Made by a program: the position numbers and the translations under genes. The notes beneath the pieces were generated by a model. That model was not told the DNA's origin and searched no databases. It saw only the letters and a program-made list of their open reading frames with translations. From the IMG/VR virus record IMGVR_UViG_3300045993_000281, positions 1 to 33,090 of that record: a DNA stretch of 33,090 bases. One strand, written 5' to 3'. The stretch comes from a virus. Of this stretch, positions 1-24,978 are shown piece by piece. The first letter of the stretch is position 1; every line of letters begins with the position of its first letter.

Positions 1-163
1 ACCGCTTAGCATTGTCTGCCAAGTACTTCTTGTAGAACCTTTCAATGTTATCCGTGAGATACACCACCAACTGAGCCGCGCTGGTTCTGCTGTGTATCTC
101 GCGTGTAAGTACCAGCGTCATCTTGATTTTCGAATCATTTATTGTTGCAGTTATCTTTTGCAT
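1..163 (-). CDS. Partial hypothetical protein (C-terminus beyond left edge)
   Basis: The reading frame opens with ATG at 163, six bases after the stop of the GIY-YIG gene, and stays open to the window edge (54 residues seen). It starts MQKITATIND and is rich in charged and beta-branched residues, with a helical stretch near residues 34-50 (VVYLTDNIERFYKKYL). The ribosome-binding site is weak (AAGTGA just upstream, inside the end of the previous gene), so translational coupling to the upstream gene is likely. I do not recognise the family. The tight spacing and the fact that the next gene upstream stops only here support a real gene; the rest is outside the window. Confidence 0.55.
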   Translation of the reverse strand, partial: MQKITATINDSKIKMTLVLTREIHSRTSAAQLVVYLTDNIERFYKKYLADNAKR

Positions 164-168
164 TTTAT

Positions 169-819
169 TCACTTATATTTGATTTGCGTTGCCATACACA
201 TCATGTGTAGACGATCCTTGTGTTTCTGTGTTATTGGTTCTTTTACAACCCATGAGACCTTGTTCACTAACAAATTGTACCACATATGCCGGTTGACAGG
301 CGACTCCACATGCATCAAACTCCATGTTTCGGCGTAACTGACAGCACCTTTTGAGCGATATTGCTCAATTGCCACGAATTCAAAACTATCCTTTCCATTC
401 GTCTTAATTGATGCGCTGAGTTCCTTTGAGCTTGAGATATACCATCGCCAGTTAGAATCCTCCCCTTTGTTTTCCCTTCCAAGCCCTTTAAACTGCTTTT
501 TACCGAGATAGAGCTTTTCATTTAAAATATCCCTTATCACGTAAATGAAACCGACTTGCTTGTCGGTCCCAAGAGGTTCATCAAACTGCCAATGTCCGTT
601 TCCACGATACTTAGTCGGGTCTACACGACTGCCTACTTTTCCCTCCAGAGATACTCTCGTTACCCTAGGTAGAATAGTAGGAGTGGCGACAAGAGGACTA
701 ATATAAGTAGTACCAATAAGATGCGCTGGGAACTCGAACTTGGGATTATCATCCAATGGGGCTTCATTCTTTGCTACTTCCTTTTTGGGAAAGTTAAACT
801 TAAACTTTTCATCATCCAT
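169..819 (-). CDS. SegE-like GIY-YIG endonuclease
   Basis: Probable site-specific endonuclease of the GIY-YIG fold, most like the SegE-type free-standing nucleases of phages. The GIY half is GFIY at residues 90-93 and the YIG half is YLG at 104-106, followed by KKQF. Downstream come the family-typical W-x2-Y-x-SSSKEL (residues 124-134), GKDSFEF (142-148) and a glutamate at 164 (AETW) that would be the metal-binding Glu. Residues 1-85 are an extra N-terminal arm rich in Lys, Phe and Pro that I do not recognise; it may help bind DNA. SegE-type enzymes are homing nucleases in T4-like phages, but here the gene is free-standing and not inside an interrupted gene. It sits at the downstream end of the replication genes. 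The fold is well supported; the biological role is inferred. Confidence 0.78.
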   Translation of the reverse strand: MDDEKFKFNFPKKEVAKNEAPLDDNPKFEFPAHLIGTTYISPLVATPTILPRVTRVSLEGKVGSRVDPTKYRGNGHWQFDEPLGTDKQVGFIYVIRDILNEKLYLGKKQFKGLGRENKGEDSNWRWYISSSKELSASIKTNGKDSFEFVAIEQYRSKGAVSYAETWSLMHVESPVNRHMWYNLLVNKVSWVVKEPITQKHKDRLHMMCMATQIKYK

Positions 820-9874: not shown

Positions 9875-9886
9875 ACCGTTGTAACA

Positions 9887-9904
9887 TTAATTTAACGGGG
9901 TCGC
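9887..9904 (-). promoter_or_regulatory. 18-bp intergenic repeat, copy 1 (candidate phage RNA polymerase promoter)
   Basis: On the plus strand it reads TTAATTTAACGGGGTCGC. Another copy with one change lies at 24961-24978. Both are in real intergenic gaps, both upstream of a minus-strand gene that needs strong expression. The phage encodes a T7-type RNA polymerase, whose promoters are about 20 bp, so a promoter is a natural reading. No transcription start is visible from sequence alone. Confidence 0.45.
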
Positions 9905-11885: not shown

Positions 11886-14180
11886 TTACGCGAATGCGTA
11901 CTCACTGTCTAAGATTAGATTAATATCGAGATTCCCCATTTCTACTTTTGAGACGTCACCATTTATGTCGCGCATGATAGATGTAAGCGGATCATGCGAG
12001 TACAACTCTACAAAGGACTCCCGTATGATTACAAATAAATCTGCCATATCGCCAAGCAAACAACCGAAACTATCATGAATGGTAGTCACTGGAAAGTCTG
12101 CTCTATTTACTGCTATCGTCAAATGCGCAGCATCAAGGCTGTGTATTGCATTTGGACTTGCCCCTTGGCTTTGTTTCTTCTTACTTAATTGTGTGGTTTC
12201 CAGAAAACATATAGCTAGTTGAAATGTGTTTTCATAGTAGCCTGTCGAATTACGGATGCCTACTGGTGGGCCATATTGCACCCATATCTTCTTAACCGTA
12301 CCTTCGGTGTAGTGTTGCGTGACAGGGAAGCCTGTTCCAGGAACCTTCCATGATAGGAATTGTCCGGCAGTTTCTGCAGCCTTACCAGCAGCTTCAAATA
12401 CACTTAGGAGTTGCATGGGCCTCTTTAAAGATACTCGGCAGTCTTCATAGACTTCACGCCCCATATAGGAACCCCATTTGTGTTCCATGGCAAACAACTG
12501 CTCAATGCCGTGTTTTCTAGCATCATCAATCTGCTGCTGACCTAGCCCATATGCTGTTCCGCCGTAGGGCAGCGTCATGATGTTTCTCTTTACTATCTTT
12601 CGCCTATGCTTCCCATCTTTGATTCTGTTCCAATAAACAGGGCATGCCATTGCAATCAAATCTATACGACTCTTTTTGAACGCCATTATCTCTGTTATTA
12701 ATTCTTTTCTCCTGTCGCTCTTAAGGGGTGCTTCTGATATTTGGCGTTTGAAATCCGCCAGATTATCAATCAAATTTTCGCAGTCTTCCACATCAGTTGC
12801 CGACATTTCGCTTACAGCCAATTCAATCCTACGCCACACATGGTCTGCTACGTACTTATACAAATCGCCAGGTAATGGACTCGGCACGAGGTTAACGTGA
12901 GGTGCAGTTACTTCGTCCCTTGTAAGTGCCGATAAGTGTTGGCTACCGTTATTACTCCCATCGATATAACACTCAAGATGCGACTCGTAATTGTATAGAA
13001 GCAAGTCCCAATCATCGCTATCAGTTGGGTCTACTTCTCTTAATTGATGTACGTGAGCATCTTGCCACTCTCTCAATTTCTTTAGTTCCATGCATGCCGA
13101 CAAGAACTGCCAAGGCTTATCAGCTTGCATCCAACCTTGATTAACCTTTGGCGACTCGGCATAAGACAGTATTATTTCTTCATTGTCTAGCACCCAATAG
13201 ACTCTGTCATTGAGGGGGATTTTATCAGTCTTGTAGCCATCCAATCTCCCCGCGTCGCCAGCCCAATTCGATGCAATTGAGATAAGTAGCCAGAAGTAGC
13301 CCTGCTCTCCAATGGACTTGCTATCAGCACGGAGTAGGAGTCCTTTGGCGAGGTCCGTTCCTTGTTCATGAAGGTAAGCCGTAGCTGGATACTTTCTCCC
13401 ACGAAAGTCGTAGTAATAGAGATGAAAGAATACTTTACCAATAAACCTGCTAGCGATGCTACCAATAGCCTTTGCTTCCCGAATCTTCGACTGCTTGGCC
13501 TCGGGATTGTGCATTTCCCAGATGTCTGCGAAGGCGTCTGTTTTGTTTCTAAGGGCCCACGTATAGATAGGGTAGATGTCTTCATTTATTTTCCATCCAA
13601 CAGCTTGCGCTTTATTTAAACAATTAAATACCAATGGATGTGTTTCTGGTGTAAGTTCTTTCAACACATCCTTGCTTGAAGTTTTTACCATAGTAACACC
13701 TGTGACATGTTTAGTGTCAGTCCAGGGGCAGTATGGGGTTTCGCTGGGCAATTTTTCAGTTTTGTTTAGGTGTAAGCTATCCCACATCTTGGATAACTCT
13801 TCCTCATTAATAATCTCTATGACATACGTTTGGTGGCCATTGCCAGCTTTTCCGAGTATGACCTTTATAATTTCAAAAGCCTCGAAAGAGTATAGAACAA
13901 ACGCTCCTGCTTTTGCGGCAATCGCACTGTCCTTTTTTAGTTTATACTTAGTCCTCACACCATGACCAATAGCACTAATAACCTCCGTCATAAGTACCAT
14001 CTTCTTATCCACACCACGCCCAGTACGTGAGTATAAATAGAGGATGCCTACGGAGGCGTCTACTAAATCCTCTATGTTTACCATAGGGTCTGCTAGAAAC
14101 TTCACCGGATTTTGTGGTGCAATTTCAGATGCAATTCTTTGCATTAAGGATGCGATTAGTTTTTGTTTTATCGTTTCCAT
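11886..14180 (-). CDS. T7-type single-subunit DNA-directed RNA polymerase, 764 aa
   Basis: Transcribes phage genes from specific promoters, bypassing host RNA polymerase. Catalytic elements in order: YYYDFRGRKYPAT (256-267, T7 DWRGR region), IDGSNNGSQH with Asp407 (T7 D537), VKRNIMTLPYGG with Lys531 and Tyr539 (T7 K631, Y639), PNAIHSLDAAH (676-686) and IHDSFG with Asp703 (T7 D812). The C-terminus SEYAFA resembles the T7 DFAFA foot. It is 764 long against 883 in T7. The DFRGR motif is at about 258 instead of 421, so the N-terminal promoter-opening domain is some 160 residues shorter. There is about 30 extra residues between the DGS and KRN motifs (around 450-505, charged and helical). A DNA recognition loop probably lies around 612-665. 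Confidence 0.96.
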   Translation of the reverse strand: METIKQKLIASLMQRIASEIAPQNPVKFLADPMVNIEDLVDASVGILYLYSRTGRGVDKKMVLMTEVISAIGHGVRTKYKLKKDSAIAAKAGAFVLYSFEAFEIIKVILGKAGNGHQTYVIEIINEEELSKMWDSLHLNKTEKLPSETPYCPWTDTKHVTGVTMVKTSSKDVLKELTPETHPLVFNCLNKAQAVGWKINEDIYPIYTWALRNKTDAFADIWEMHNPEAKQSKIREAKAIGSIASRFIGKVFFHLYYYDFRGRKYPATAYLHEQGTDLAKGLLLRADSKSIGEQGYFWLLISIASNWAGDAGRLDGYKTDKIPLNDRVYWVLDNEEIILSYAESPKVNQGWMQADKPWQFLSACMELKKLREWQDAHVHQLREVDPTDSDDWDLLLYNYESHLECYIDGSNNGSQHLSALTRDEVTAPHVNLVPSPLPGDLYKYVADHVWRRIELAVSEMSATDVEDCENLIDNLADFKRQISEAPLKSDRRKELITEIMAFKKSRIDLIAMACPVYWNRIKDGKHRRKIVKRNIMTLPYGGTAYGLGQQQIDDARKHGIEQLFAMEHKWGSYMGREVYEDCRVSLKRPMQLLSVFEAAGKAAETAGQFLSWKVPGTGFPVTQHYTEGTVKKIWVQYGPPVGIRNSTGYYENTFQLAICFLETTQLSKKKQSQGASPNAIHSLDAAHLTIAVNRADFPVTTIHDSFGCLLGDMADLFVIIRESFVELYSHDPLTSIMRDINGDVSKVEMGNLDINLILDSEYAFA

Positions 14181-14318: not shown

Positions 14319-14341
14319 CGTACTCTCTTGTGGTTGCTACG

Positions 14342-14401
14342 AAAAAAAAAAAAAAATATACGACAGAGACCACTAAACCCGTGGGGGAGTAGTGGTCTCT
14401 G
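14342..14401 (-). terminator. Strong intrinsic terminator before the RNA polymerase unit
   Basis: An 11-bp perfect stem CAGAGACCACT/AGTGGTCTCTG (14364-14374 with 14391-14401) encloses a 16-nt loop. On the minus strand it is followed, seven bases later, by 15 consecutive T (14342-14356). That is a classic host-type terminator for transcripts coming from the right. The loop also allows a short CCC/GGG pairing. Confidence 0.8.
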
Positions 14402-14412
14402 CAGTAGAGGAT

Positions 14413-14733
14413 TTAAAGTATTTCGTAGTTAACAACGCCAATCAACTTCTGTAATCTCGCTACTTTTTCCTCTTCGATGAAGAACGGAATGTTATCACTG
14501 AAGTGCGCTATGCCACGCACGTAAGTCGGATTATACCAAGAACTCGGCGCTGCCCATGATATCCGTATAATGCTAGTTACGAATAAATTCTTCGCAACAA
14601 ACTTTCGGACTGAGGGAGTGAAACTTGAAGGCAAGACCAGACTAGACAATGTACTGTCCAAATCTACTTTGTCTTTTACAGCTGCACGAGCTTCAAAAAA
14701 GAACCCGTGTATTACAACCTCCTTATGTGACAT
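14413..14733 (-). CDS. Hypothetical protein, 106 aa
   Basis: Unrecognised mixed alpha/beta protein (MSHKEVVIHGFFFEARAAVK start). I place the start at ATG 14733 because GGAGG is five bases upstream; an in-frame TTG 18 codons earlier lacks such a site. It ends 11 bases before the terminator stem and is therefore the last gene of the small-gene region. Confidence 0.6.
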   Translation of the reverse strand: MSHKEVVIHGFFFEARAAVKDKVDLDSTLSSLVLPSSFTPSVRKFVAKNLFVTSIIRISWAAPSSWYNPTYVRGIAHFSDNIPFFIEEEKVARLQKLIGVVNYEIL

Positions 14734-15802: not shown

Positions 15803-15928
15803 CTAATGAAACCTGTTGAGAGCCTTTAGCGTCCTCATCAGACCGACGCTTGAACGTTCACGTCCGACTAGTAAGGATGAGATCTCATACAGAACATCTA
15901 ACAAGGCCTTACGGTACTCTTCGGACAT
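15803..15928 (-). CDS. Microprotein, 41 aa
   Basis: AGAAGGAGAG six bases before ATG at 15928 is a very strong ribosome site. The product MSEEYRKALLDVLYEISSLL continues with a basic, Ser-rich amphipathic helix and is probably a single long helix or helical hairpin. I do not recognise it. It lies directly downstream of the copy of a 32-bp repeat shared with the endolysin leader. Confidence 0.62.
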   Translation of the reverse strand: MSEEYRKALLDVLYEISSLLVGRERSSVGLMRTLKALNRFH

Positions 15929-15962
15929 GATACTCTCCTTCTAAAAGATTGAGGGACGTACG

Positions 15963-15998
15963 GGGGTATTCATATAAGATACCCCGTTTTGCGCAAAT
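15963..15998 (-). repeat. Palindromic 32-bp repeat, copy 1 (leader of the 41-aa gene)
   Basis: Plus-strand core TATTCATATAAGATACCCC followed by G then TTTTGCGCAAAT matches 17295-17326 at 31 of 32 positions. It holds a hairpin (GGGGTAT/ATACCCC, 9-nt loop) and the palindrome TTTGCGCAAA. It begins exactly at the stop of the 28-codon gene and lies upstream of the 41-codon gene. Read on the plus strand it looks like a terminator (hairpin then TTTT); on the coding strand it does not. Confidence 0.75.
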
Positions 15999-16084
15999 TA
16001 CCAGGTGATACTTGATAGTATTACGATGATAACGAATACCACTGAGACTACATTTTCACGAGACAGCCACTTATTGTCGTTCAT
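15998..16084 (-). CDS. Single-span membrane microprotein, 28 aa
   Basis: ATG at 16084 follows AAAGGAGATTCAA, a strong ribosome site. The 28-residue product has a polar start (MNDNKWLSREN) and a hydrophobic span VVSVVFVIIVILSSITW to its end. This is a typical tail-anchored phage micro-membrane protein. The frame is open further upstream to a TTG at 16207, but the ribosome site points to the short form. It could be a small holin-like or regulatory peptide; unproven. Confidence 0.62.
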   Translation of the reverse strand: MNDNKWLSRENVVSVVFVIIVILSSITW

Positions 16085-16302
16085 TTGAATCTCCTTTGTT
16101 AACCTACTCTCCAATACTATCCTCGCTACATCTACGAAGTCACGACAACCGTTCCCATTGAAGGGACGTACGACCTCACTAAACAAGGATACACGTTCCA
16201 GGCGCAATCGCCTTGTCTGTACTGCCAGCTGGAACCGGCAATACCAGATAGTACTGGAGAGTAAGCCCTCTCATGATGAAAAGGCTTACTATTTCTAAGA
16301 AT
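16085..16302 (-). other. 218-bp stretch without a convincing gene
   Basis: It holds a hairpin at 16260-16290, a second possible fold with outer arms GTACT/AGTAC around TGCC/GGCA (about 16218-16254), and one copy of the GGACGTACG motif (16164-16172). Only weak short frames without ribosome sites are present. It is probably an untranslated leader or a small RNA region. Confidence 0.4.
16260..16290 (-). promoter_or_regulatory. 8-bp stem-loop after the 85-aa gene
   Basis: AGTAAGCC/GGCTTACT with a 15-nt loop, without a following T-run on the coding strand. It lies 13 bases past the stop of the 85-residue gene, where a terminator or 3' stabiliser would be expected. Confidence 0.4.
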
Positions 16303-16560
16303 TCAACTACCATTTGCTGGGTTAGCCGACATGACTGCCTTCATCATGCCCGTCATTGACGCCGATTCACCGCGATCAAAACCTGCATCGTATACAGTTC
16401 TCAATACCGTCTTGATTAGGTCGGGCTGCGTAGCTTCAGGTATCATGCTAATCAGAAAGCTAATGGCAGGGTTTTTTAGCATCTCTTCGAACCCTTCCTT
16501 TTTGTTTTCTGCTATTTCCTTGAATGTCTTCTCTGCAATTTCTTTCATGTCACGTGCCAT
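16303..16560 (-). CDS. Hypothetical helical protein, 85 aa
   Basis: An all-helical, charged protein (MARDMKEIAEKTFKEIAENK) with a hydrophobic middle (AISFLISMIPEA) and a Met/Ala-rich C-terminus. AGGAGATCGCA precedes the ATG at 16560. It is the first gene after the lysis-operon terminator, so it is transcribed by readthrough or from a promoter I cannot identify. Function unknown. Confidence 0.65.
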   Translation of the reverse strand: MARDMKEIAEKTFKEIAENKKEGFEEMLKNPAISFLISMIPEATQPDLIKTVLRTVYDAGFDRGESASMTGMMKAVMSANPANGS

Positions 16561-16581
16561 TGCGATCTCCTATGTTGGATT

Positions 16582-16608
16582 AAAAAGGCAACCCAAGATG
16601 GGCTGCCT
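16582..16608 (-). terminator. Intrinsic terminator after the lysis cassette
   Basis: A 9-bp stem (one G-T pair) AGGCAGCCC/GGGTTGCCT with a five-base loop, followed at once by TTTTTAA on the minus strand. It sits four bases after the last lysis-region gene and 22 bases before the next start, so it is well placed to end the late transcript. Confidence 0.85.
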
Positions 16609-16611
16609 ATG

Positions 16612-16794
16612 CTACGAAGTTGCTTTACTGTAAAACCTACAAATACTAAATGGGTGTACCGTCTCACGCTTCACGCTACATTTCAAGCTAAGTTTCTCTC
16701 GCACGGAATTATTACATGTTCCGCAGTTTCGATTCACTTTTACGCCAGGCGGGAAGGTAACAACAGTATTTGAGTCGAAGTGACGAACCGCCAT
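16612..16794 (-). CDS. Four-cysteine microprotein, 60 aa
   Basis: Cys24-x2-Cys27 (NCGTC), Cys39 and Cys52 (SICRFY) form a four-cysteine zinc-knuckle-like pattern. Similar small phage proteins read CxxC...C...C-x-F/Y near the end and have no known function. The protein is basic and may bind nucleic acid. ATG at 16794 has AGGAT just upstream, which also ends the endolysin gene (TAG). It is the last gene of the late transcript. Confidence 0.65.
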   Translation of the reverse strand: MAVRHFDSNTVVTFPPGVKVNRNCGTCNNSVREKLSLKCSVKRETVHPFSICRFYSKATS

Positions 16795-16797
16795 ATC

Positions 16798-17277
16798 CTA
16801 GTCCTTGTAAAAGACGTGGTCTCCAATTGTAACTGTTCTTGTAAACACTTTAGACCAATATGGTTTTACGTAGGTCGCGTGGAAATACATCGCGCCGTCC
16901 GTGTTATCCTCTTGTGTAACCATCGCTTCGATAGCAATCTCTTTTGATTTCTCGAAAGCGGTTAGATCGCGGATTCGTTTAGCAGTACCATCATACCAGG
17001 AGAACTGAGCGGGTTCTCGTATTATCTCACAAACGGTCTTAGATCGCGCCTTGGCACGGTTCAAGACTACGTGAGCAACGGCTAGTTTGCCAGCATCAGG
17101 TTCACCTCTGGCTTCGTGGTAGATATTCTCTGCCATACATTGAAGGGCATTTGCGGATATAGAAACTATCTTAACTGTTTCCAAAACTGCGGTCGGCATT
17201 ACATCGACCACCACGGTTGTGCTAACAAGAGCGGCCGCCATGATGTATAACAAAATTGAATTACGTAGAATTTTCAT
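16798..17277 (-). CDS. SleB-type (Hydrolase_2) endolysin with N-terminal signal
   Basis: Cell wall hydrolase of the SleB/CwlJ family. The diagnostic core is CMAENIYHEARGEP (47-60, Glu50 and Glu55, one of which should be the catalytic acid), then LAVAHVVLNRAKA, VCEIIREPAQFSWY and DGAMYFHA, with KVFTRTVTIGDHVFYK at the end. It cleaves peptidoglycan during lysis. Residues 8-27 are hydrophobic but rich in Ala, Ser and Thr, so the enzyme is probably exported by the Sec system as a signal-anchor-release or signal-peptide endolysin. Cys47 and Cys83 may form a disulfide. AAAGGAACGTGA precedes the ATG. Its leader has an unusual SD-pairing hairpin and a repeat. Spanin genes lie just upstream. Confidence 0.9.
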   Translation of the reverse strand: MKILRNSILLYIMAAALVSTTVVVDVMPTAVLETVKIVSISANALQCMAENIYHEARGEPDAGKLAVAHVVLNRAKARSKTVCEIIREPAQFSWYDGTAKRIRDLTAFEKSKEIAIEAMVTQEDNTDGAMYFHATYVKPYWSKVFTRTVTIGDHVFYKD

Positions 17278-17289
17278 TCACGTTCCTTT

Positions 17290-17326
17290 GGGGTTATTCA
17301 TATAAGATACCCCTTTTTGCGCAAAT
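17290..17326 (-). repeat. Palindromic 32-bp repeat, copy 2 (endolysin leader)
   Basis: The same element as at 15963-15998 with one change in the 32-bp core, and a looser hairpin because of one extra T in the left arm. It ends 13 bases before the endolysin ATG, so it is certainly in the endolysin mRNA leader if transcription comes from the right. Confidence 0.75.
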
Positions 17327-17329
17327 AAT

Positions 17330-17358
17330 TACCTCCTGAAAGGGTATCCCAGGAGGTA
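17330..17358 (-). promoter_or_regulatory. Hairpin pairing a perfect Shine-Dalgarno with its complement
   Basis: On the minus strand TACCTCCTG pairs with CAGGAGGTA across an 11-nt loop. The right arm is a full AGGAGGT ribosome site followed six bases later by TTG. The arm is hidden in the stem. It lies between the spanin stop and the endolysin start and is therefore a candidate translational switch or a terminator-like structure. Confidence 0.5.
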
Positions 17359-24197: not shown

Positions 24198-24833
24198 TTA
24201 GGGGACAGGTACAATATTAGTTGGGCTGTATAGCATTTCTACCATACCCCGCATAGGTTTCCAGGTTCGTTGGTAGCGACCGCCAGTAGGCTCAGTTACT
24301 CTCAACTCGAAGAATCCGTAAGTATTATATTGTGTATTAGGCTGAACAGCCCACGTGCTGCTAAGCGCCAGCGGAAACTGTATATGAACTTGATTAGGCT
24401 CGTACAGTTCCCAATTAATAGCGTCTAGTTCCGGCGCCACAATCGAAGTCAGATTGCCAATCGATTTACGCTTATAGTATAGATTATTTGCTGGGGCTCG
24501 CACAAGTTCTAGCGCAGTATAGATAGTACTTCCAATCCAGACGAGCCCAGCTGCGTTGATTGTAGGGTGCCAAACATCCAGTGTAGTGTCTATCCTTGCC
24601 ACTGCTTTCGCGGTAACAGGTGGCACTATTTGGCCGACCACATTTTCTGCTTCCATCACAACAGCCTCGAAGGTATATGGATTTCCACCACTATTGCCTA
24701 ATCCACTTACGTTTGCGATGAAGTCTAACGTGACAGGAAACTCAAGTTGCTCCCCCTGCACGATTGACCATAAAACACCTCCAGAATCGTCCTGAAGGCT
24801 AGTACCTGTACTTGTTATCAAAGATCGCGCCAT
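24198..24833 (-). CDS. Hypothetical tail-region protein, 211 aa
   Basis: Beta-rich, neutral protein with no known motif (MARSLITSTGTSLQDDSGGV start). It shares the MAR start of the SPRY protein downstream. It is the first gene after the 305-bp gap, so it opens the distal tail unit. Gln/Asn/Pro-rich segments (WAVQPNTQYNTYGFF) fit a virion structural protein, possibly a fibre adaptor. AAGGCGG precedes the ATG. Confidence 0.6.
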   Translation of the reverse strand: MARSLITSTGTSLQDDSGGVLWSIVQGEQLEFPVTLDFIANVSGLGNSGGNPYTFEAVVMEAENVVGQIVPPVTAKAVARIDTTLDVWHPTINAAGLVWIGSTIYTALELVRAPANNLYYKRKSIGNLTSIVAPELDAINWELYEPNQVHIQFPLALSSTWAVQPNTQYNTYGFFELRVTEPTGGRYQRTWKPMRGMVEMLYSPTNIVPVP

Positions 24834-24960
24834 GTTAACCGCCTTATTTGTGAATTAATTGATTGTTAATATTGAATAATAATGATAACTATAACCCATA
24901 AGATGATTGGTTGGGCTGGTTATATAGTCCCTATATTACAGGGGGAGGGCGCCCTTATCT

Positions 24961-24978
24961 TTAATTTAACGGGTTCGC
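24961..24978 (-). promoter_or_regulatory. 18-bp intergenic repeat, copy 2 (candidate phage RNA polymerase promoter)
   Basis: TTAATTTAACGGGTTCGC on the plus strand, 17/18 identical to 9887-9904. It is about 130 bp upstream of the distal tail unit. On the transcribed strand both read GCGA-(A/C)-CCCGTTAAATTAA, then diverge. Confidence 0.45.

Follow-up and report, generated by a model that had tools for sequence, protein, structure and literature searches.

Repeated directional elements as probable promoters in phages that encode two single-subunit RNA polymerases

We analyzed two near-identical elements in a 33,090-nucleotide stretch of viral DNA (hereafter the window; positions 1 to 33,090 of IMG/VR record IMGVR_UViG_3300045993_000281) and conclude that they, and the related elements here called class B, are very probably phage promoters. 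We read them in this way because of their tie to a phage RNA polymerase (RNAP), their restriction to one strand, their position, and the ribosome-binding site and start codon that lie downstream. The best explanation of the whole data set, which we favor with moderate confidence, is that the elements serve phage single-subunit RNAPs: a polymerase fused to a MuF domain would read class B, and a free, non-virion polymerase (nvRNAP) would read a second motif, class A.

The two elements, at 15967-15998 and 17295-17326, are identical at 31 of 32 bases, in agreement with an earlier note on this DNA. When they are extended to 15962-15998 and 17290-17326, the identity is 35/37 and the edges are sharp, the sequence beyond the 37-bp repeat being at background (5/20 and 7/20 identical in the flanks). 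The same note correctly placed the perfect 10-bp palindrome TTTGCGCAAA in both copies and a minus-strand gene after each, the endolysin in one case and a 41-codon gene in the other. All main genes of the window are on the minus strand, and the features relevant to our argument are as follows.

15962..15998, minus: class B copy 1, with its core GCGCAAAACGGGGTATCTTATATGA at 15994-15970 and +1 placed by alignment at the G at 15971
17290..17326, minus: class B copy 2, with its core GCGCAAAAAGGGGTATCTTATATGA at 17322-17298 and presumed +1 at the G at 17299
15803..15928, minus: 41-codon open reading frame (ORF) with a Shine-Dalgarno sequence, first gene past copy 1; no family match
16798..17277, minus: endolysin / cell wall hydrolase (Hydrolase_2, by domain match), first gene past copy 2
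11886..14180, minus: nvRNAP, a free non-virion single-subunit RNA polymerase, T7-type, 764 aa, with DGS...YG...HDS motifs
17330..17358, minus: terminator-like 12-bp hairpin directly upstream of copy 2, closing the preceding unit
15998..16084, minus: possible hydrophobic ORF, 28 aa, whose stop codon abuts copy 1 on its upstream side; it shares its frame with ORF 15998-16207
9883..9900, minus: class A motif CCCCGTTAAATTAATGTT, the second promoter-like motif
24957..24974, minus: class A motif ACCCGTTAAATTAAAGAT, within the gap that precedes the tail-region gene 24198-24833

Transcription from class B would begin at or near the G of TATATG(A/G), leaving leaders of 22 nt before the ATG of the endolysin gene and 43 nt before that of the 41-codon gene. 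The nvRNAP gene lies 3 kb downstream of both elements, and terminator-like hairpins are found between copy 2 and this gene at 16608-16586, 15680-15647 and 14330-14430. The last of these is very strong (-39 kcal/mol on the coding strand), is followed by a run of about 15 T residues and sits just ahead of the polymerase gene region; it probably terminates or attenuates transcription between the promoters and the polymerase.

The record is classed as linear. Since its first 243 bases (window 1-243) match its last 243 at 97% identity, it probably represents an entire genome of about 96.85 kb, and it is therefore meaningful that it holds only two strong copies of the element. A genome-wide search of the 97,090-bp record for the 18-bp core, with up to three mismatches allowed, returned exactly these two places, on the same strand. 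A matrix built from the motif in relatives scored copy 2 at 45.4 bits and copy 1 at 42.5 bits, where the top site in 30 random 97-kb sequences reached 5.6 bits. A weak third resemblance (548-512, minus strand, 8.7 bits against this random maximum) lies within a GIY-YIG endonuclease ORF and was left uncounted. Recent duplication without function, which the earlier note had entertained, was rejected: the flanks are unrelated, and dozens of relatives bear the motif at many positions.

A search among annotated phages recovered no relatives at the nucleotide level. Relatives were gathered through the window's RNAP and scanned with the 37-bp sequence, which gave many partial matches whose common part was only GCG(C/G)AAA and GGTATCTTATATGA. 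Class B is accordingly defined as GCG(C/G)AAA-N4-GGTATCTTATATGA, a motif of about 25 bp with fixed spacing on the coding strand: in all 62 cores with both parts, among 73 examined, CGnAAA and ATCTTATATG are 13 nt apart. The logo of 180 sites comprises an A/T-rich lead, GCG, C or G, AAA, four loose positions, GGTATCTTATATGA and an A-rich tail; its core is inflated by loci fetched via exact core matches, and the loci found through the RNAP, with mismatches allowed in the search, show the same core. There is little information outside it. Comparison with relatives thus bears out the element as a whole, at its fixed spacing, but neither its palindrome nor the arms of its GGGG/CCCC stem, which are not conserved. 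The motif is present in 1-5 copies per contig, all on one strand in every motif-bearing contig searched. A ribosome-binding site and start codon follow 161 of the 180 sites at a median of 42 nt, and the endolysin family is the commonest first gene after class B in relatives (11 sites). Copies inside one genome share the leader as well as the core, as if homogenised.

Class B is confined almost wholly to phages with this polymerase system, a conclusion that is well supported by searches from both directions. Starting from the motif, we found 97 stretches among 2.9 million viral contigs. A free RNAP homologue is encoded by 23 of the 24 long contigs selected in this way, most full-length homologues being 50-67% identical, against 3 of 24 control contigs chosen for the 14-mer core alone; of these 3, at least L123 carries the full motif as well. 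Starting from the RNAP, class B was found in 16 of 20 contigs, always on one strand, and a reversed-pattern control gave none; in a further 24 contigs it was present in 23, again on one strand each. Its position is equally constrained. Of 88 sites in 33 genomes, 71 are found no more than 10 kb upstream of the gene for the free RNAP, where 12 would be expected, and mostly at 1-8 kb; every genome has such a site, the nearest at a median of 1.7 kb.

Class B therefore displays what is expected of a promoter: it is directional, lies before genes on the strand that is transcribed, and occurs where a polymerase is encoded. It also diverges with the polymerase lineage, as seen in the diverged version of the cultured phage DSS3_VP1 described below and in the fourth core position, where the GCGC/GCGG state clusters on the RNAP tree (5 changes versus 11.1 in shuffles, 0 of 500 being as low).

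Some free polymerase genes are themselves irregular. In G033, G038 and G041 (loci L380, L383 and L381) there is an in-frame insertion near residue 538, beside the YG motif, which is intein-like and in one case contains a stop codon. Longer genes also occur in L024-L028, L032 and L034, and in G036 and G037 the gene is split, with stop codons, in an intron-like arrangement. Both ends of the G039 contig (positions 1-300 and 76,780-77,325) carry tandem repeats of about 132 bp.

Other functions can be proposed for a palindromic repeat near gene starts. The earlier note had suggested a binding site for a repressor or a polymerase, and it is the polymerase half that is strongly supported. That a repressor or other regulator binds TTTGCGCAAA as an operator would account for the perfect palindrome in both window copies; we regard it as the least probable of the readings considered, given that 4 of 156 sites have the palindrome in perfect form, that GCGG is commoner than GCGC (84 vs 48), and that the conservation is directional and extends to TATCTTATATGA. 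It is also improbable, though slightly less so, that the elements are sigma-70-type promoters of the host or sites at which an activator or sigma factor encoded by the phage acts with the host RNAP. Such a view could draw on the TATAT or TATAAT-like sequence close to the presumed start, and on the DSS3_VP1 core, which includes TATAAT. However, there is no sigma-70-type site at either element, the TTG at the -35-like place is not conserved (ACG 46, TTG 42, CTG 29 and ATG 18 of 156), and a near-invariant core that follows a phage lineage exceeds the needs of sigma-70. An N4-type hairpin promoter was likewise rejected, as there is no conserved inverted repeat near +1 and the stem arms are variable.

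A further set of proposals treats the element as acting at the RNA level only, as a 5' mRNA stem-loop, a processing site, a plus-strand terminator or a leader peptide. The hairpin described for each copy can form but is weak on the coding strand (copy 1, -11.5 kcal/mol, z -2.5; copy 2, -9.0, z -1.8). The claim that it is a terminator on the strand without genes was not reproduced: the scan called none at either element on either strand, and the G+C-rich hairpin with a T run of an intrinsic terminator was not seen there. A block to plus-strand transcription is likewise at odds with the lack of a plus-strand terminator and with motif copies that all lie on one strand per contig. The frame from TTG to TGA encoding MRK(T/K)GYLI does exist, but a start codon (ATG/GTG/TTG) and an open frame are both present in only 45 of 156 sites, and the leader peptide was discarded. 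What does speak for an RNA structure is the folding of leaders from +1 to +30, which is more stable than that of shuffled sequence (mean z -1.32, standard error 0.16), compared with a mean z of -0.08 from +31 to +70 (both at 124 non-redundant sites). The shuffles were mononucleotide, which makes the downstream windows the better control. Many class B copies thus probably have a real tendency to form a stem-loop near the start, variable in sequence, and the GGGG/CCCC stem of the window may be an unusual case of this, because its left arm would sit upstream of the presumed start. With a stem that varies in sequence and a core that does not, it is very unlikely that RNA structure is the whole function of the element, and we retain the promoter reading.

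These genomes encode a second polymerase that must be considered as a reader. A 1535-aa protein at 45,770-50,377 of the record, minus strand (L116:12770-17377), carries a MuF domain in its N-terminal part and, at residues about 560-1535, a C-terminal RNAP domain of the single-subunit type, matching Phage_Mu_F and RNA_pol, both above the Pfam cut-offs. The fusion is present in 34 of 38 contigs, and also in DSS3_VP1 and EBPR siphovirus 1. Its polymerase motifs A (D.SSSG.Q), B (K....TFYG) and C (HDA) are retained in 31 of 31 genomes. As expected of a virion RNAP, the polymerase is joined to a virion protein and its catalytic motifs are intact; we regard it as a candidate virion RNA polymerase that is presumably packaged, judging by its MuF domain. 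The gene is split in several relatives. An AlphaFold model of the polymerase domain (mean pLDDT 45.8, 8 sequences) was too poor for use. The literature that we searched, with incomplete coverage, yielded no description of a MuF-fused single-subunit RNAP or of these motifs.

Class A, the second motif, is intergenic and has the sequence CCCGTTAAATTAA, with copies at record positions 9,898, 24,972, 64,381 and 82,995. This motif (GRMCCCGTTAAATTAAWGATAA) is conserved, with lineage-specific variants, in 33 of the 40 contigs searched, mostly relatives; CCCGTTAACTTAA is found in all four G023 copies and CCCGCTAAATTAA in G001. Between 2 and 8 copies occur in most relatives, almost always on the coding strand, and in some of them class A and class B adjoin. 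A further match at 48,562-48,574 of the record was discounted, as it lies in the MuF polymerase coding sequence (IPVKLKRR), and so were those at G010 46,468 and G001 36,046, which are probably coding sequence of the same gene. Because these matches lie in coding sequence, we gave up an initial view that class A stands ahead of the MuF polymerase gene.

Co-occurrence cannot decide which enzyme reads which motif, because both polymerases accompany class B. Nor does the GCGC/GCGG state discriminate between them, as it fits both polymerase trees equally (6 and 6 changes). More informative are five genomes that have free-polymerase sequence without class A (G015, G024, G033, G037, G039). Across 16 conserved columns of the nvRNAP specificity loop, whose limits were taken from its spacing to the HDS motif in T7 and not from a structure, all five carry 3-13 changes against a median of 0 in the others (p=0.0001, or p=0.012 after division by whole-protein divergence), a comparison that rests on about four lineages, G024 and G039 being sisters. 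The changes include a 12-residue deletion in G024 and G039. In these five genomes the MuF polymerase shows nothing unusual in the equivalent region (p=0.13), and class B is canonical in all of them. Contig G029 has class B and the MuF polymerase but neither a free RNAP nor class A. Since the loop is altered where class A is absent while class B is unchanged, class A can be assigned to nvRNAP, which by elimination leaves class B to the MuF polymerase. Provided that the elements are promoters, we consider this assignment likely, on a small and partly non-independent sample.

The converse, that class B comprises nvRNAP promoters in the style of T7, with the host RNAP making nvRNAP and nvRNAP then transcribing the lysis and replication genes, is a less likely alternative. 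Class B strictly co-occurs with nvRNAP, which is the nearer relative of T7 RNAP, and its core (GGT...C..TATAT-G) looks T7- or SP6-like. Yet the MuF polymerase co-occurs with class B just as well, large changes in the nvRNAP loop such as the 12-residue deletion leave class B unchanged where class A is lost, and a site upstream of the nvRNAP gene is the place expected for the promoter of an earlier enzyme.

Under our preferred assignment, the MuF polymerase would enter the cell with the DNA and start at class B (15,971 and 17,299, minus strand). This early set would yield the endolysin-like hydrolase and small proteins. Read-through, which the hairpins between the elements and the polymerase gene would need to allow in part, would carry transcription on into the genes of the free polymerase and the replication enzymes. 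The free polymerase would then read class A as a later set, in the structural region and elsewhere. Counting against this scheme are the endolysin, which is an odd early gene, these same hairpins, and the relatives in which class A and class B adjoin. Two class B sites in a 97-kb genome are few for a main promoter class, though expected of an early set.

Among named phages, the closest counterparts are DSS3_VP1 and DSS3_PM1 (Naomviridae), which resemble the present phages in gene order, in both polymerases, in a diverged class B and in a second repeated motif; they differ in the motif sequences and in an RNAP only about 35% identical. DSS3_VP1, with 35% identity in its RNAP, has the same order of tape measure, polymerase and replication genes. 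Its version of class B, AAAAGTGAGAAAACTAAGGCATCTATAATGA, is found at two strong places between the tape measure and polymerase genes (L345:5796 and 6243), ahead of the early region, with partial ones besides; another intergenic motif, AATAGGTTACGTTAAAGAGG, is repeated 8 times in the structural half (L348:2241-29395). Its MuF-fused polymerase (QGH74596.1) is annotated only as minor head protein-like. The uncultured relatives L031 and L033 carry a third version of its class B-like motif. Neither motif is convincing in Kolga, which has one RNAP (29% identical), and class B was not seen in the partial record of EBPR siphovirus 1. The literature searched, again with incomplete coverage, contained no promoter description for DSS3_VP1 or DSS3_PM1.

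Known systems offer partial parallels: the nearest is P23-45 in logic, N4 in enzyme family, and the mined T7-type promoters in promoter form. P23-45 encodes a free RNAP alongside another that is fused to a structural protein, and has two promoter motifs, the early one sitting upstream of the free RNAP gene (PMC10770324). The arrangement here is alike in each of these respects. However, the enzymes of P23-45 are two-barrel RNAPs, the virion one fused to the tape measure protein, whereas here both belong to the single-subunit T7/N4 family and the fusion is to a MuF head protein. N4 shares with our phages a virion enzyme of the single-subunit family and a few promoters leading to the genes of a second phage RNAP. 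Its virion RNAP promoters require a DNA hairpin, formed by inverted repeats around a GC-rich heptamer at -11 (PMC4496689), in contrast to class B, which has no conserved hairpin. Experimentally defined T7-type phage promoters (T7, SP6, Syn5, KP34, CD23823; PMC12272871) are, like class B, directional motifs of about 20-30 bp with fixed spacing, T/A-rich just before the presumed start and repeated before genes on one strand, in phages with a polymerase of this kind. Class B differs from them in sequence, in placing GCG(C/G)AAA at about -23 to -17, upstream of T7's usual -17 limit, in having 1-5 copies per contig, and in that the enzyme reading it is probably not the T7-like one.

Collectively, our sequence comparisons turn an anonymous repeat into a testable transcription program for a large group of uncultured phages. 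The fuller picture, about which our confidence is evenly balanced, is of a widespread long-tailed phage lineage in which an injected, MuF-fused RNAP of the T7/N4 family would read early, non-hairpin, double-stranded promoters and give way to a free T7-type RNAP with a later set, a cascade like that of N4 with a new virion fusion partner. The two promoter motifs can be used for operon prediction in these genomes, and the two new single-subunit polymerases with their candidate cognate promoters could be useful as orthogonal enzymes for in vitro transcription. The cultured relative DSS3_VP1, which grows on Ruegeria pomeroyi, makes direct tests possible: if our reading is true, early, rifampicin-resistant starts would be found at CATCTATAATG and late starts at GGTTACGTTAAAGAGG sites. 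A MuF-fused candidate virion polymerase would add to the known means of delivering a phage's own polymerase to the host cell.
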